Origin: Candidatus Rokuibacteriota bacterium
GTDB taxonomy: Bacteria; Methylomirabilota; Methylomirabilia; Rokubacteriales; CSP1-6
NCBI GenBank assembly: GCA_023248995.1
Contig: JAHFDN010000023.1
Coordinates: 4,731 to 46,317 of the forward strand
Reading direction: 5' to 3'
DNA length: 41,587 bases
The notes beneath the pieces were generated by a model. That model was not told the DNA's origin. It did no database searches and saw only the letters and a list, made by a program, of their open reading frames with translations. Shown here piece by piece: positions 10,149 to 18,489 of this stretch. Position 1 is the stretch's first letter, and every line of letters starts with the position of its first letter. Position numbers and translations under genes: made by a program.

Positions 10149-11063
10149 ATGTTCGGGTCCGTCGAGGAGGTTCAGGAGCGCTTCCACCGGGCGCGCTACA
10201 TCGCGAGCCGCCGGATCGCGACGGTGGTCTTTCTGGCCGAGCGAATGGGCCGGCCCGTCCTGATCGAGGGGCCGGCGGGCGTGGGCAAGACCGAGCTGGC
10301 CAAGGTGCTGGCGGAGGCCACCGGTCGCCGCCTGATCCGGCTCCAGTGCTACGAGGGGCTCGACGAGGGCAAGGCGCTCTACGAGTGGAAGTACGCCAAG
10401 CAGCTCCTCTACACCCAGCTCCTCAAGGAACGGATCGGCGAGCTGATCGAGGACACCCACTCGCTCCCCGAGGCGGTGGCCAAGATCGCCGGTCAGGACG
10501 ACGCGTTCTTCTCCTACCACTTCCTCTCGCCCCGCCCGCTCCTCTCGGCCATCCAGGCGGAGGACGAGGTGGTCCTCCTCGTGGACGAGATCGACAAGGC
10601 GGAGCCGGAGTTCGAGGCGTTCCTCCTCGAGGTGCTCTCCGACTTCCAGGTCTCGGTCCCGGAGCTGGGGACGATCACGGCCAAGCACATTCCCCTCGTC
10701 GCCCTGACCTCGAACAACGCCCGCGAGCTCTCCGACGGGCTCAAGCGCCGGTGCCTGCACCTGTTCATTGATTTTCCCGCGCCCCAGGAGGAGCTCCAGA
10801 TCCTGCGCCTCAAGGTGCCCGAGATCACGGAGCGCCTGGCCGGGGCCGTCGTGACGGTCGTCCACCGGATCCGCGCGCTCGAGCTCCGGAAGCCGCCGTC
10901 GGTGTCGGAGAGCCTCGACTGGGCGCGCTCGCTGGTGATCCTGAACGCCGCCGCGCTCGAGCCCGGCCTCGTCGAGAGCACGCTCACGATGCTGGTGAAG
11001 TACGAGAGGGACCTGGAGCGCGTGCGGGGCGCGCTCGACAAGGTCCTCGCCGATCTGGGATGA
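10149..11063 (+). CDS. MoxR/CoxD-type AAA+ ATPase
   Basis: A 304-residue MoxR-family AAA+ ATPase. Walker A GPAGVGKT is at residues 41-48, Walker B is LLVDEIDK near residue 140, and the sensor/arginine-finger region is SNNARELSDGLKRRC. In the MoxR/CbbQ/NirQ/CoxD group such ATPases work with a VWA-domain partner to mature or activate metalloenzymes; CoxD helps assemble the copper-molybdenum centre of CO dehydrogenase. The VWA partner is the second gene downstream. A GAGGAA ribosome site precedes the ATG. The stop overlaps the next gene by ATGA. The client enzyme is not encoded beside it. Confidence 0.9.
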   Translation: MFGSVEEVQERFHRARYIASRRIATVVFLAERMGRPVLIEGPAGVGKTELAKVLAEATGRRLIRLQCYEGLDEGKALYEWKYAKQLLYTQLLKERIGELIEDTHSLPEAVAKIAGQDDAFFSYHFLSPRPLLSAIQAEDEVVLLVDEIDKAEPEFEAFLLEVLSDFQVSVPELGTITAKHIPLVALTSNNARELSDGLKRRCLHLFIDFPAPQEELQILRLKVPEITERLAGAVVTVVHRIRALELRKPPSVSESLDWARSLVILNAAALEPGLVESTLTMLVKYERDLERVRGALDKVLADLG

Positions 11064-11617
11064 ACGACTGGAAGACCCTCACGGAATTTCGGGAGCTCTG
11101 GTTTCCGTCCCCCCGGATCCGGCTGCCCGAGCTAGGGCCGGCCGGACCGGTCTTCATCGAGGGCGGGCGCTGCATTTCCGGCCTCTTCGGTGAGTACAGG
11201 AAGCTCTGGCTCCTGGCCGCGGGGCGCTGGCACTTCTACTACGTCCATCCGCTGCCGCGCGACTTCTTCCTGGCGACGATGCCCGAGGCGGTGGCGCACC
11301 TCTTGAAGCCGGACGAGCTCACCGTCGAGACGTTCCGCCAGGGGCTCTCCTACAAGGTGGTGCTGGGGCTCCGATCCGCCGAGGGGCCGGTGCGGGTGCT
11401 CCACCTGGTCGGCGACGTCCCCGACCTGACCCGGTGCGCCGAACGCGTCGAGGACGTCCCGTCGGGCCCGCTCGGCTGGAAGCTCTCGCTGACCCACGTC
11501 ATCGGGCAGGGCTCGTTCCACGGCCTGATCCGCCTGGAGGACGGACGCCTCTGCCCGATCAGCCGCGAGCGGAACGAGGACGTCTTCAAAGCCTCCTGGG
11601 TCACCTTCACCCGGTAG
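11060..11617 (+). CDS. Unknown protein between MoxR and CoxE-type genes
   Basis: A 185-residue cytoplasmic-looking protein that I do not recognise. There is no signal peptide, membrane helix or Cys motif. It is rich in aromatic residues (WHFYYVHPLPRDFF near residue 60; NDWKTLTEFRELWFP at the start) and probably folds into mixed alpha/beta. It overlaps the MoxR stop by ATGA, and its own stop TAG shares a base with the GTG of the VWA gene, so the three are translationally coupled. It is likely a co-factor of the MoxR/VWA chaperone pair. Confidence 0.7.
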   Translation: MNDWKTLTEFRELWFPSPRIRLPELGPAGPVFIEGGRCISGLFGEYRKLWLLAAGRWHFYYVHPLPRDFFLATMPEAVAHLLKPDELTVETFRQGLSYKVVLGLRSAEGPVRVLHLVGDVPDLTRCAERVEDVPSGPLGWKLSLTHVIGQGSFHGLIRLEDGRLCPISRERNEDVFKASWVTFTR

Positions 11618-13026
11618 TGGATCAGAGAATCCTGGAGTTCATCGGGGATTTGAGACGCGCCGAGATCCGGATCTCGCCGTCGGAGGCGCTGGACGCCCTG
11701 TCCGCGTCCGCCGAGGTGGGGCTCCTCGACCGTGAGACCTTCAAGACGGCGCTCGCCGCCACCCTCGTCAAGGAGTTCCGGGATCTCCCCGTGTTCAACC
11801 GGCTGTTCGATCTCTACTTCCTCGATCTCGAGACGCTCGGAAGGGGAGTGAAGAAGGCGCTGGGACCGGCGGACCCGGGGATCCAGGACCAACTGGAACG
11901 GCTCCTGACCCAGGAACAGGTGGACCTCGACCCGCTGACCGAGCTCCTCCTCCGGGGCGAGGGGAGCGAGCTCGAGCTGGCCATCCGCGAGGGTGGCCGG
12001 CATGTCGGCCTCGAGCGGCTCCTCTACTTCCTCCAGATCGCGTACTTTTCCCAGCGCATCCGGGATCGCTTCGACTGGGAGGCCATCGAGCGGGATCTGG
12101 CCCGGCTCATGCGGCTCTTGGAGGCGCAAGGGATCGATCCGGGGCGGCTGGCGCGCGTCAGGAACTACCTCGACCTTCGCCTCGAGGCGTTCCGCCGGAT
12201 GATCCGGCAGCACGTCGAGCGCGAGCTGGAGCGCCGCGCCTTCCGCCAGGGCGAAAGGCTCATCCGCGAGACGCTGACCGACAAGCCACTCTTCGCCCTC
12301 TCGGCCGAGGAGGTGGCGCAGCTCCAGGCCGTCGTCGCCCGCCTCGCCCGGAAGATCAAGGACGCCCTCGTCCTGCGCCAGCGCCAGGAGGCCAAAGGGC
12401 GCCTGGACTCGCGCCGGACGGTCCGGAGGAGCCTCCAGTACGGCGGGATCCCGATGGAGCTCCGGTTCCGCCGCCGCCGCCGGGAGAGGCCCAAGCTCGT
12501 CACGATCTGCGACGTCTCCGACTCGGTGCGCAACGCCTCGCGCTTCATGCTCCAGCTCGTCTGGAGCCTTCAGGAGTGCTTCAGCCGGGTCCGGAGCTAC
12601 GTCTTCGTCTCGGAGATCGCCGAGGTGACCCAGGCCTTCAACACCTATCCCGTGGACAAGGCCCTGGACTGGGCGCTCGGCGGGGCGCCCGTGGATTACC
12701 ACTGCCGCTCCGACTTCGGCTACGCCTTCAGCCGCTTCTGCCACACCGAGCTGGAGAGTCTGGACCGGAAGACGACGATCCTCGTCCTCGGCGACGCGCG
12801 CAACAACTACAACGATCCCCAGTCCTGGGCCCTCAAGAGCATGCGGGAGCGCGTGAAGGGGATCATCTGGCTGAACCCGGAGGGACAGTGGGGCTGGGGG
12901 ATCGGCGATAGCGTCCTGCCCCTGTATGCGCCGCATTGTGACGTCGTGAGGGAGTGCCGGACGATCGGCCAGCTCGCCCACGTCGTGGATAACCTCGTCC
13001 ACCACTGGTGGCGCCGCGGCCGCTAG
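11617..13026 (+). CDS. CoxE-type VWA-domain protein
   Basis: A 469-residue protein starting at the GTG at 11617, which overlaps the previous TAG by one base; upstream codons in frame lie inside the preceding gene. The first 290 residues are helical with heavy charge (several ER/LR-rich segments). The C-terminal third is a von Willebrand A domain with the metal-ion-dependent adhesion motif DVSDS (Asp299, Ser301, Ser303). CoxE-family proteins are cytoplasmic partners of MoxR/CoxD ATPases in metallocluster assembly. No coxL, coxM or coxS gene for CO dehydrogenase is in view, so the client is unknown; the neighbouring 357-residue protein and selenoprotein are candidates only by position. Confidence 0.85.
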   Translation: MDQRILEFIGDLRRAEIRISPSEALDALSASAEVGLLDRETFKTALAATLVKEFRDLPVFNRLFDLYFLDLETLGRGVKKALGPADPGIQDQLERLLTQEQVDLDPLTELLLRGEGSELELAIREGGRHVGLERLLYFLQIAYFSQRIRDRFDWEAIERDLARLMRLLEAQGIDPGRLARVRNYLDLRLEAFRRMIRQHVERELERRAFRQGERLIRETLTDKPLFALSAEEVAQLQAVVARLARKIKDALVLRQRQEAKGRLDSRRTVRRSLQYGGIPMELRFRRRRRERPKLVTICDVSDSVRNASRFMLQLVWSLQECFSRVRSYVFVSEIAEVTQAFNTYPVDKALDWALGGAPVDYHCRSDFGYAFSRFCHTELESLDRKTTILVLGDARNNYNDPQSWALKSMRERVKGIIWLNPEGQWGWGIGDSVLPLYAPHCDVVRECRTIGQLAHVVDNLVHHWWRRGR

Positions 13027-13043: not shown

Positions 13044-14117
13044 ATGCCGCGGACGACCAGGCGCTCCAGCGGGCCGGAGTCCCAGGCCGACGCCATCGAG
13101 GAGCTCTACGCGCGGGGCGTCACCGACGGCCTGCCGGTCGTTCCGCCGACGCTCCGGCGCGTCGAACAGGCGATCGCCGCCTCCGGACGTGAGGCCGACG
13201 ACCTGATCGCCCTCGTCCCCCCGAACTACGGCCGCGCCACCGTGGAGAAGATCGCGGTGAACGCGGTCATGGCCGGGTGCCGTCCGGAATACCTCTCCGT
13301 GGTGATCGCCGGCGTCGAGGCGATGTGCGACGAGGCCTTCGATCTCCACGGCGTGTCGGCCACCACCAACTTCTCCTCGCCCCTTTTTATTATCAACGGC
13401 CCGATCCGCAAGCGCCTCGACGTGAACTCGGGGGTCGGCGTCTTCGGCCCGGGCTGGCGCGCCAACGCGACGATCGGGCGCGCCCTCCGCCTGATCGCCG
13501 TCAACCTCGGGGGCGCGAGGCCAGGGATCATCAGCATGTCCACCATGGGCCATCCCGGCCGCTACACGTACTGCATCGGCGAGAACGAAGAGGAGAACCC
13601 GTGGGAGCCGCTCCACGTGGAGCACGGCTTCCAGCTGTCCGAGAGCACGGTGGCCGCGTTTGCCGGAGAAGCGCCCCACGGGATCTACGACCACAAGAGC
13701 CGCACCGCCAAAGATCTCCTGACCACCATCGCCCGGAGCCTGGAGGTGATCTGGCATCACAAGGCGACGGCGCTGGGCGACACGCTGGTCGTCCTCTCCC
13801 CCGAGCACGCCCGGACGATTGCCGGCGACGGCTGGTCAAAGAAAGACATCCAGCGCTTCCTCTGGGAGCTGCTCCAGAAGCCGGTGAAGGATCTGCTGCC
13901 GGGCCGAGACGGCGGCGAGGGGCTGCCCGAGGCTGTCCTCACGCGGTTTCAGCACCCGGAAACGGACGAGACGCTGGTCCCCAAGTTCCGCGCGCCCGAG
14001 CACTTAAAGATTCTGGTGGCCGGGGGGACGGCGGGAAGGTTTTCGGCGGTGATCCCGGGGTGGACGTTCCCCAACGGCTCCAACCTCGTGGTCAAGAAGG
14101 TCCGCATCCGAGAGTGA
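13044..14117 (+). CDS. Unknown protein paired with the UGSC selenoprotein
   Basis: A 357-residue soluble protein with no signal peptide. I cannot name its function. A notable segment is GVTDGLPVVPPTLRRVEQ (near residue 28), followed by a well-ordered Gly/Asn-rich region including SSPLFIINGPI, GVGVFGPGWRANATIGRA and MSTMGHPGRYTYCIGENEEENPWEPLH. Conserved Cys, His and Asn in this region would suit a catalytic or metal site. It ends 12 bases before the selenoprotein start and is clearly cotranscribed with it. From memory, proteins with this DGLPVxPPT signature accompany UGSC proteins in other genomes; that recollection is unchecked. The ATG has only a weak ribosome site. Confidence 0.7.
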   Translation: MPRTTRRSSGPESQADAIEELYARGVTDGLPVVPPTLRRVEQAIAASGREADDLIALVPPNYGRATVEKIAVNAVMAGCRPEYLSVVIAGVEAMCDEAFDLHGVSATTNFSSPLFIINGPIRKRLDVNSGVGVFGPGWRANATIGRALRLIAVNLGGARPGIISMSTMGHPGRYTYCIGENEEENPWEPLHVEHGFQLSESTVAAFAGEAPHGIYDHKSRTAKDLLTTIARSLEVIWHHKATALGDTLVVLSPEHARTIAGDGWSKKDIQRFLWELLQKPVKDLLPGRDGGEGLPEAVLTRFQHPETDETLVPKFRAPEHLKILVAGGTAGRFSAVIPGWTFPNGSNLVVKKVRIRE

Positions 14118-14129
14118 AGGAGGCGACGC

Positions 14130-14660
14130 ATGGCCAAGGATGATCGCTACCTGGATCCTACTGATTCCGTGGCGGTGCCGCGGAAGACGGCCCCGCGGCC
14201 GCCGAGCCTCGACGGCAAGGTGGTCACGCTCCTCGACATCTCCAAGGCCAAGGGGGATCACCTCCTCGACCGCCTCGAGGAGCTCCTGCGCGAGCGCGCG
14301 AAGCCCAAGGCCATCCTCCGGCGGAAGAAGCCGACCTTCGCCCGGCCGGCGCCGGATGACCTCCGCCGGCAGATCCTGAAGGAGAGCGACGTCGTCGTCG
14401 AAGCCCTGGCCGACTGAGGGTCGTGCACAACGTGCAGTGTGCACGACGGCGTGTTCTTCGAAGATCAGGGGCTCCCGACGGCGACGGTGATCTCGGCGGA
14501 GTTCGTGAAGGCGGCCCGGGCCCAGGCCGAGGCGCTCGGCGCGCGCGCGTACAAGACGGTGGTGGTCCCGCATCCGATCCAGCCGCTGACGCGGGATGAG
14601 GTGCGCGTCCTCGCCGACAAGGTCTGGGACGAGATCCTGGCCCGGTTGACCCACGCCTAG
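14130..14660 (+). CDS. UGSC-family selenoprotein with in-frame TGA (selenocysteine)
   Basis: Read through the TGA at 14415-14417 as selenocysteine, this is one 176-residue protein. Sec96 starts the motif U-G-S-C-T-T-C (Sec96, Cys99, Cys102), which matches the family named for its UGSC motif; related proteins have Cys in place of Sec. The sequence continues without a frame change into SVHDGVFFEDQGLPTATVI and a conserved C-terminal half ending at TAG 14660. A perfect 10-bp hairpin follows the TGA directly, as a bacterial SECIS should. An AGGAGG site precedes the ATG at 14130. The chemistry is probably thiol/selenol redox or a selenolate-based reduction; it is unproven. As two separate genes neither half has a ribosome site or a sensible terminus at the junction. 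It needs selA, selB, selC and selD elsewhere in the genome. Confidence 0.85.
14415..14447 (+). promoter_or_regulatory. Sec codon (TGA) and putative bacterial SECIS hairpin
   Basis: The TGA (14415-14417) is followed by a perfect inverted repeat: GTCGTGCACA (14420-14429) and TGTGCACGAC (14438-14447) around the loop ACGTGCAG. With a C-G closing pair the apical loop becomes GUGCA, starting with the G expected in bacterial SECIS elements. The loop begins about 14 bases after the TGA, slightly nearer than the usual 16-37. No T-run follows, so it is not a terminator. Confidence 0.75.
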
Positions 14661-15684: not shown

Positions 15685-18489
15685 TCAGCGCCCCCGGCCG
15701 GCGCGGCCGTTGAGTCTCGGGAGCACGTCGCGGAGGAACTTGCCCGTGTAGGAGCCTTCCGTCTGGGCCACCAGCTCGGGCGTGCCTTCGGCGACGAGCT
15801 CGCCCCCCGCGTCGCCGCCTTCGGGCCCCAGGTCCACGATCCAGTCGGCGGTCTTGATGACGTCCAGGTGGTGCTCGACGACGACGACGGTGTTGCCCGC
15901 GTTCACGAGGCGATTCAGCACGGCGAGCAGCTTTTTCACGTCGTCCAGGTGGAGGCCGGTCGTCGGTTCGTCCAGGATGTAGAGAACGTCGGTCGTCGGG
16001 CGCGCCCCGAGCTCGGCGGCGATCTTGAGGCGCTGGGCTTCACCCCCCGACAGGGTCGTGGCCGGCTGGCCGAGTCTCAAGTACCCGAGCCCCACTTCCT
16101 GGAGCACCTGGAGCCGGCGAACGAGGGCCGACTGCGCGGAGAAGAACTGGACGGCCTCGTCGACGGTCAGCCGGAGGGCCTGGCTCACATCCTTTCCCTT
16201 GTACGCGACCTGAAGGACGTCGGGGCGGAAGCGCTTGCCGGCGCACTCCTGGCAGGTGACGTAGACATCCTCGAAGAAGTACATCTCGAGCTTCTGGAAG
16301 CCGTTTCCCTGGCAGACCTCGCAGCGCCCGCCCGGGACGTTGAAGGAGAACGCGCCCGAGTGGAGCCCCAGCGCCCTGGCGCGCGGGAGGCCGGCGTACA
16401 CCTTCCGGATCTCGTCGAAAGCCTTGATGTATGTCACGGGGTTGGAGCGCGGGGTGCGGCCGATCGGCTCCTGGTCAATGAGACGCACGCCCTTGACGTA
16501 CTCCAGGCCGAGCAGCGCGTCGTACGCTCCCGGCGGCTGGAACTCGACCTTGAAGGCCCGCGCCGCCGCCCGGTAGAGCGTGTCGTGCACGAGCGTGGAC
16601 TTGCCCGAGCCCGACACGCCCGTGACGCAGGTGAGCGTCTGGAGGGGGAACTTCACCGTCAGGCCTTTGAGGTTGTGCTCGTGCGCGCCCACGAGCGTGA
16701 GATGGCGGCGCCCCTGCCGGCGCGCCGGCGGCGTCGGAATCGAGTCGCGCCCGGTGAGATAGCGGGCCGTCAGCGACCGGGGATCCTGGAGGAATAGGGC
16801 GCGGCTGCCGGCGAAGATCACCTGGCCCCCGCGTTCCCCCGAGCCCGGGCCCAACTCCACGAGGTAATCGGCGGACTCGATGAAGTTCCGGTCGTGCTCG
16901 ACGATCACGACGGTGTTGCCCCTGCTGGCCAGCTCCCGGCAGAGCTCGCTCAGGCGGGCGGTATCGCGCGCGTGGAGGCCGATGGAAGGCTCGTCGAGCA
17001 CGTAGAGGGTCCCCACCAGCTGGGAGCCCAACTGGTTGGCCAGGTTGATGCGCTGCGCCTCCCCTCCGGAGAGGGTGCGCGTCTGGCGCGAGAGCGTGAG
17101 GTACCCGAGGCCCACGCGGAGGAGGAAGCCGACCTTGGCCTGGAGCTGCTTCAGGATCTCGCGCGCCACGGCCGCTTCCCAGGTCGTCAGCGGCACGGCG
17201 GCGACGAAGCGCGCCAGCTCTTCCACGGTCATCGCCGTGCAGTCGGCGATCGTCCGCCCCCCCACCTTCACCGCCAGCGCCGCGGGCTTGAGGCGCGCCC
17301 CGGCGCACCGCGGGCAGCGGAACTGGCTCCGGTAGCGGGAGAGGAAGACCCGGATGTGAAGCTTGTACCGGTAGGACTCCACCTCCTCGAAGAAGCCGCG
17401 GATCCCGGGGAATTTCTTATCCCCCTCGTGGAGCCAGTGCCGATCCTCCGGCGTGAGCAGGGCGTAGGGGCGGGCGGGGTCCAGTCCGCGGCGCTTGGCC
17501 GCCTTGAGGAGCTCCTTCTGGTACCACCGGCTCGACGGATGGCTCCACGGCTCGACGGCGCCGTCCGCCAGGCTCCGGGACGGGTCGGGGATCAGGCGCG
17601 CCTCGTCGTAGCGGAGGATGTTGCCGAAGCCCTTGCAGTCCGGACAGGCCCCGAGCGGGTGATTGAAGGAAAAGAAGAGAGGCTGGGGCCGCGCCAGGGC
17701 CAGCCGGCAGACGGGGCAGCGGAACTCCTGCGCGAACACGCGGGGCTTCCGGCCGAGGACCTCCACCTCCACCGTCCCGCCTCCCTCGCGGAACGCCGTC
17801 TCCAGCGAATCCGTGAGCCGGGCCCGCTGCTCCGCCGCCAGGCTCACGCGGTCCAGCACGACGAGGACCTCGCGGGTCTCGGACAGATCCAGGGCGGGGG
17901 AGGGGGACAGATCGAGCACCTGTTCCCCGACCTTCACGCGGGCAAAGCCGCGCTTGACGAGGCTCGCGAAGAATTCCGCTCTCCCGGCGTCTTGGGTGCG
18001 GGCCGCCGGCGGCACCGGCACCGGGAAGCAGAGGAGTGCGCGCTCGCCCGGATGTTCCCGCAGGAGCCCCTCGGCCACCGTGTCGACCGAGTCGGAGGCG
18101 CCCGGCGTCCCGCACTGGGGGCAGTGGACGCGGCCGATCTTGGCGAAGAGGAGGCGCAGGTAGTCGTAGACCTCGGTGGCCGTCCCGACCGTGGAGCGCG
18201 CCGTCCTGACCGGGTTCTTCTGCTCGATGGCGACCGAGGGGCGGATCTGCTCGATGCGGTCCACGTCCGGACGGTCCACGCGCTCCAGAAACATCCGGGC
18301 GTAGGTGGAGAGCGACTCGACGTAGCGCCATTGCCCCTCGGCGAAGAGGGTGTCGAAGGCGAGGGAGGACTTGCCGGAACCGGAGACGCCCGTGATGACC
18401 GTGACGCGGTCGTGGGGGAGGGCCAGCGAGATGTTTTTCAGGTTGTTCTGCCTGGCTCCTTCGACCCGGAGCCAGAGGGGCTGGGCCAT
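15685..18489 (-). CDS. uvrA: Excinuclease ABC subunit A
   Basis: A 934-residue UvrA, about the normal 940. It recognises damaged DNA in nucleotide excision repair and loads UvrB. Two ABC ATPase modules are complete: Walker A GVSGSGKSS at residues 34-42 and GVSGSGKSTLVHDTLY in the second half, with ABC signatures LSGGEAQRI and LSGGEAQRL. Zinc modules are visible (CPVC...CPDC and CEVC...CQEC). The ATG at 18489 has an AGGAGGT site upstream; longer in-frame starts overlap the divergent promoter region. No uvrB or uvrC gene is nearby, which is usual. It converges with the GT2 gene. Confidence 0.96.
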   Translation of the reverse strand: MAQPLWLRVEGARQNNLKNISLALPHDRVTVITGVSGSGKSSLAFDTLFAEGQWRYVESLSTYARMFLERVDRPDVDRIEQIRPSVAIEQKNPVRTARSTVGTATEVYDYLRLLFAKIGRVHCPQCGTPGASDSVDTVAEGLLREHPGERALLCFPVPVPPAARTQDAGRAEFFASLVKRGFARVKVGEQVLDLSPSPALDLSETREVLVVLDRVSLAAEQRARLTDSLETAFREGGGTVEVEVLGRKPRVFAQEFRCPVCRLALARPQPLFFSFNHPLGACPDCKGFGNILRYDEARLIPDPSRSLADGAVEPWSHPSSRWYQKELLKAAKRRGLDPARPYALLTPEDRHWLHEGDKKFPGIRGFFEEVESYRYKLHIRVFLSRYRSQFRCPRCAGARLKPAALAVKVGGRTIADCTAMTVEELARFVAAVPLTTWEAAVAREILKQLQAKVGFLLRVGLGYLTLSRQTRTLSGGEAQRINLANQLGSQLVGTLYVLDEPSIGLHARDTARLSELCRELASRGNTVVIVEHDRNFIESADYLVELGPGSGERGGQVIFAGSRALFLQDPRSLTARYLTGRDSIPTPPARRQGRRHLTLVGAHEHNLKGLTVKFPLQTLTCVTGVSGSGKSTLVHDTLYRAAARAFKVEFQPPGAYDALLGLEYVKGVRLIDQEPIGRTPRSNPVTYIKAFDEIRKVYAGLPRARALGLHSGAFSFNVPGGRCEVCQGNGFQKLEMYFFEDVYVTCQECAGKRFRPDVLQVAYKGKDVSQALRLTVDEAVQFFSAQSALVRRLQVLQEVGLGYLRLGQPATTLSGGEAQRLKIAAELGARPTTDVLYILDEPTTGLHLDDVKKLLAVLNRLVNAGNTVVVVEHHLDVIKTADWIVDLGPEGGDAGGELVAEGTPELVAQTEGSYTGKFLRDVLPRLNGRAGRGR

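Follow-up and report, generated by a model that had tools for sequence, protein, structure and literature searches.

The window analysed here, a 41.6-kb stretch of DNA, belongs to a Rokubacteria MAG (G000; 2.34 Mb, 97% complete). On its forward strand lies a gene of the UGSC family that is interrupted by an in-frame TGA codon and preceded by a second gene, here called UP, with three further genes upstream of the pair. The features of the locus are as follows.

10149-11063, forward strand: AAA ATPase (Pfam AAA_5)
11060-11617, forward strand: gene without an assigned family, between the AAA ATPase and VWA genes
11617-13026, forward strand: CoxE-like VWA protein (Pfam VWA_CoxE)
13044-14117, forward strand: partner gene UP, 357 residues, 12 bases upstream of the UGSC start and in the same frame
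14117-14123, forward strand: Shine-Dalgarno-like AAGGAGG ahead of the ATG at 14130, read from the sequence
14130-14660, forward strand: UGSC-family selenoprotein gene, 176 residues with selenocysteine (Sec) at residue 96, assigned by NF041046 and PF24696 matches
14415-14417, forward strand: UGA codon read as Sec96 within the UGSC motif, assigned by TGA/Cys conservation
14431-14445, forward strand: core of the proposed SECIS hairpin, CGUGC-AGUGU-GCACG, assigned by pairing, covariation and synonymous constraint

With TGA translated as Sec, the frame runs to the TAG at 14658-14660 and yields a protein of 176 residues that includes ADUGSCTTCSVHD. The positions of the ATG, TGA and TAG and the joined protein are exactly those given by the first-pass annotation, which had also seen no ribosome site at the junction; this holds on direct reading, as the earliest start codon past the TGA (GTG 14439) has no Shine-Dalgarno-like site. 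Across the whole window, the only TGA codons with a coding-like frame on both sides are 14415-14417 and the stop of the upstream gene, which is in the same frame as the UGSC gene. The joined protein matches the NCBIfam model NF041046, "UGSC family (seleno)protein", at 163.4 bits (cut-off 125) over positions 1-147 of 147 and the Pfam model PF24696 at 173.2 bits (cut-off 25) over positions 2-171 of 172. Since both models are matched end to end, chance is excluded, and the proposal that this is a Sec-bearing member of the UGSC family is borne out by full-length matches above both curated cut-offs.

Is the TGA a recoded codon or simply a stop? Two adjacent open frames would also result from two independent short genes, or from one gene disrupted by a nonsense mutation or an error in sequencing, and the stop codon itself speaks for such a reading; nothing else was found that does. 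A scan of named genomes recovered 39 homologous loci (33 from Rokubacteria, Rokuibacteriota or Methylomirabilota, one from Hydrogenedentota and five from proteobacteria). The same TGA stands at the site in all 38 loci that reach it, while the 39th is cut off before the site. Within the phylum, the family is present in 72 of 95 genomes, with as many as 12 matches in a single genome; among the matches listed, every one carries one TGA. The reading frame is maintained before and after the codon, and the hairpin that follows it is constrained. This conservation refutes two genes or a broken gene as a likely explanation, and we give that reading next to no weight. In the alignment of homologues that had been suggested as a check, Sec or Cys falls at residue 96 and the homologues continue through the site; none of those reaching it ends naturally at residue 95. 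Profile matches in three control genomes stayed below the cut-off.

The sequence just 3' of the UGA is under unusual constraint. In the 32 Rokubacteria genes nearest to this one, codons +1 to +13 downstream of the TGA have a synonymous entropy of 0.23 bits vs 0.83 bits elsewhere, and the lowest value of 154 twelve-codon intervals, the strongest constraint in the gene, starts at +3. A stem of 5 to 7 bp with the loop AGUGU is paired in 88.9% of cells across 36 distinct Sec-coding sequences. Its covariation score is 0.249, compared with 0.061 in shuffles (a value reached by none of 500) and no more than 0.071 when the hairpin is slid along the alignment, a signal that falls partly on codons with changing amino acids, so that protein constraint may contribute; the pair formed by columns 21 and 27 includes a third codon position where changes are largely synonymous. 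The loop begins 18 nt past the UGA. In bacteria, the loop of a SECIS lies 16-37 nt after the UGA, and the observed distance fits this rule. The putative hairpin thus has the small loop and the position immediately 3' of the UGA that are expected of a SECIS, and it is conserved and covarying. In Rfam, no SECIS family scored above threshold. Taken by itself, the region of the hairpin has an unremarkable folding energy (z -1.2), so the case for the hairpin is one of conservation.

The genome also encodes the proteins and the tRNA that a bacterial selenoprotein requires, as a search for sel genes, named beforehand as a further check, makes plain. tRNA-Sec (SelC) is found at 70.9 bits, with ARAGORN in agreement (tRNA-SeC), and is adjoined on contig 51 by SelB (380 bits) and SelA (593 bits). 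SelD (G000:C22:271492-272433, 347 bits) contains one in-frame TGA and is therefore probably a selenoprotein itself. With SelA, SelB, SelC and SelD all present, it is close to certain that the gene specifies one selenocysteine-containing UGSC-family protein, its UGA recoded via the 3' hairpin and the SelA/B/C/D of the cell. The UGSC family was described in 2008; as a selenoprotein, the window protein is an ordinary further member of it and no new kind. It shares with the family the UGSC motif and Sec or Cys at the same position and differs in nothing essential, the Rokubacteria forming a subfamily with an extra Cys at residue 102.

Sec is found at residue 96 in Rokubacteria, Hydrogenedentota, marine proteobacteria, Acidovorax sp. 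T1 and Paracoccus versutus, and Cys in cultured relatives, in plasmid-borne homologues of Natrinema, Halorientalis, Halalkalicoccus, Roseovarius, Arthrobacter, Embleya and Variovorax. In a 30-sequence alignment, position 96 (Sec or Cys in the typical family), Ser98 and Cys99 are invariant. Hence the motif U-G-S-C-T-T-C of the first-pass annotation stands for Sec96 and Cys99; as a family feature Cys102 does not, residue 102 being W, G, S or C in relatives. One family member (L098, 3145-3669) has USSC in place of UGSC. Plasmid-borne UGSC-UP fusions of Sporomusa (L121, 6317-8041) and Vibrio (L122, 6377-8062) have M-G-T-S replacing U-G-S-C and are apparently selenol-free versions; both adjoin genes for aconitase X and DUF126.

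No Pfam or NCBIfam model matches UP. For 53 of 55 UGSC genes, UP is either fused to UGSC or no more than 200 bases from it; the other two are L013, with no UP nearby, and L028, where the distance is 1,050 bases. Both gene orders occur (UP-UGSC and UGSC-UP), the arrangement in haloarchaea is UP-UGSC-UP, and in five loci (L087-L091) the two form a single chain of 522-528 residues. Among 94 genomes, 70 contain both genes, 23 neither, one UGSC only and none UP only (hypergeometric P 5e-21, uncorrected, which is no true probability because many of these genomes are close relatives). By these comparisons, UGSC is one half of a two-gene unit with UP, which seems to be new. A passage of the 2008 GOS survey (PMC2398784) reports a UGSC/Unknown_1 fusion, in which UGSC is joined to an unnamed domain; this domain may well be UP.

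A lone extra copy of UP is present in the genome of the window (G000:C36), beside a TRAP transporter fragment. In the window, the stop codon of UP (TGA 14115) and 12 bases are all that separates the same-frame UP and UGSC frames (13044-14660); a read-through UP-UGSC fusion is conceivable and is not needed as an explanation. Long open frames of about 530 codons turned out, in the first loci examined, to be shadow frames in GC-rich sequence; the real fusions are L087-L091. UP has no invariant Cys and many invariant polar residues. A profile search of the PDB gave no sequence relative of UP and Foldseek no confident fold match; a Foldseek match to the class I fumarate hydratase fold is not believed, at 17-19 A rmsd.

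The three genes upstream (10149-13026) possibly form one operon with UP and UGSC. They occur near UGSC in many Rokubacteria and were not found there in other phyla, which makes their operon membership uncertain. Downstream, a UvrA-like ABC ATPase (15685-18489, reverse strand) is conserved near the locus in several relatives. In cultured relatives, the neighbours of UGSC and UP include transporters of the TRAP, TAXI and TTT types as well as CoA-transferases, a CoA ester lyase and isocitrate lyase/PEP mutase homologues, and these neighbours point to the breakdown of organic acids.

A thioredoxin system recurs beside the pair. The Arthrobacter operon reads trxB-trxA-UP-UGSC, Roseovarius has UP-UGSC-trxB, and in Variovorax trxB lies three genes upstream of UP. 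In marine proteobacteria and Hydrogenedentota (five loci among L041-L046), the N-terminal part of UP itself is a thioredoxin-like domain bearing a CPTC motif, scored by Pfam at E 4e-4 and 1e-2 in two loci, below the cut-off, and by profile comparison at E 1e-4. There is no trx gene beside the UP-UGSC pair of the window, and a thioredoxin reductase gene is found elsewhere in its genome.

What kind of protein is UGSC? The AlphaFold2 model (Cys for Sec, pLDDT 92) alternates strands and helices and places residue 96 between the strand 88-94 and the helix 97-112. The predicted fold is Rossmann-like, in contrast to the thioredoxin-like fold that the GOS survey had suggested (PMC2398784), and no thioredoxin fold is present among the best 50 PDB matches of the model. 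A profile search of UGSC against the PDB returned nothing convincing, and Foldseek gave only generic Rossmann/flavodoxin-like matches with TM-scores of about 0.5 or below. In an hmmscan of 30 UGSC members, nine matched the GrdB model TIGR01917 (best E 8e-5), seven weakly matched PrdB (TIGR04483, best E 0.005), and the GrdF, GrdH and general selenoprotein B models were also matched. In the opposite direction, the TIGR01918 model finds the UGSC gene G080:C41 at its Sec region. Compared by profile with the Sec regions of six GrdB proteins from relatives, UGSC scores 86% (E 5e-6) with Sec on Sec, UGSCTTC aligning on UGTCNRC; the confident part of the match is limited to some 28 columns at the motif. 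These matches, together with the Rossmann-like model, support UGSC as a free-standing relative of the Sec domain of GrdB and PrdB, a relationship that has good support at the motif and is plausible over the entire domain.

With GrdB, GrdF and GrdH (TIGR01917, TIGR01918), UGSC shares Sec-X-X-Cys followed by an E..G.P segment. A further likeness is a thioredoxin system as electron donor, which UGSC has nearby in some lineages; in glycine reductase the electrons pass from NADPH to thioredoxin reductase and on to thioredoxin (PMC3091704). Unlike GrdB, UGSC has no GrdB N-terminal domain, and its partner is UP instead of a GrdE or pyruvoyl-type subunit, none of which was found. Like PrdB of D-proline reductase, UGSC is a short selenoprotein with Sec mid-chain, whereas no PrdA-like partner was found for it and the similarity is weak. 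In the genome of the window, neither PF07355 nor TIGR01918 finds a GrdB, and UGSC relatives match at the Sec region only; GrdE (PF09338) gave no match in a weak search that matched no control genome either. By profile comparison UP and GrdE are unrelated (0.2%). Short PF07355 matches in relatives resembled UGSC at first sight; the three that were read (L108-L110) belong to another small protein family with a different sequence. Several Rokubacteria relatives, though not the genome of the window, have full-length GrdB-type selenoproteins with an in-frame TGA (L124-L142), and some of these genes adjoin GrdE-like genes.

What, then, does the pair do? Taken as a whole, the locus is best explained by a recoded UGSC selenoprotein that acts with UP as a thioredoxin-fed selenol reductase, to which we assign a probability of roughly 0.6. 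We infer the catalysis, substrate class and electron flow of the pair as follows. UGSC and UP would form one two-component enzyme, in which UP binds a small organic acid and holds it in place. The selenolate of Sec96, at the N-terminus of a helix in the Rossmann-like domain, would attack or reduce the substrate, Cys99 would resolve the resulting bond as a selenenylsulfide, and thioredoxin with thioredoxin reductase would restore the selenol. The electron logic would be that of GrdB and PrdB in glycine reductase and proline reductase; the subunit that binds the substrate would differ. For this mechanism as a whole the odds are about even. As the Sporomusa and Vibrio fusions have MGTS, the reaction of UP may not always need a selenol.

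Two other functions deserve weighing. UP could be an enzyme without redox chemistry, such as a lyase or hydratase, and UGSC a regulatory or metal-binding subunit whose selenol stays outside the turnover. Such a division of labour would suit the loss of both Sec and Cys in the fused Sporomusa and Vibrio forms, the existence of lone UP genes and the lack of an invariant Cys in UP with its many invariant polar residues; it sits poorly with the invariance of Sec/Cys96 and Cys99 in the typical family and with the thioredoxin genes or domains that recur beside the pair, and we consider it unlikely. A general thiol-disulfide or peroxide-reducing selenoprotein with a thioredoxin-like fold, the suggestion of earlier surveys, with UP as an accessory, is slightly less likely still. 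Sec-X-X-Cys is common to many redox proteins, and a title in the reference list of PMC3091704 reports a peroxidase activity of GrdB; against this, the fold predicted is Rossmann-like, the best 50 PDB matches include no thioredoxin fold, and the strict pairing or fusion with a 357-residue partner, in operons for organic acids, suits a dedicated enzyme.

Taking the selenol reductase further, UGSC-UP could be a third branch of GrdB/PrdB-type selenol reductases, thioredoxin-fed and two-component, that reductively cleave organic acids and reach a dozen or so copies in some Rokubacteria genomes; its substrate-binding subunit would then be unlike any known one. We put forward this broader proposal tentatively, at somewhat less than even chances. 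The literature mentioning UGSC, as far as it was searched, gave neither the UP pairing nor the fold nor the GrdB/PrdB link, and the UP partner and the GrdB/PrdB link go beyond the first-pass annotation. Now that UGSC has a partner that is constant, a likely donor of electrons and a relative in mechanism, its function becomes directly testable.

Annotation can split or truncate selenoprotein genes of this kind. On the IncP conjugative plasmid p2-T1 of Acidovorax sp. T1, a UGSC selenoprotein (L116, 7923-8213) is annotated as a hypothetical protein of 96 residues because its Sec UGA was taken as a stop.
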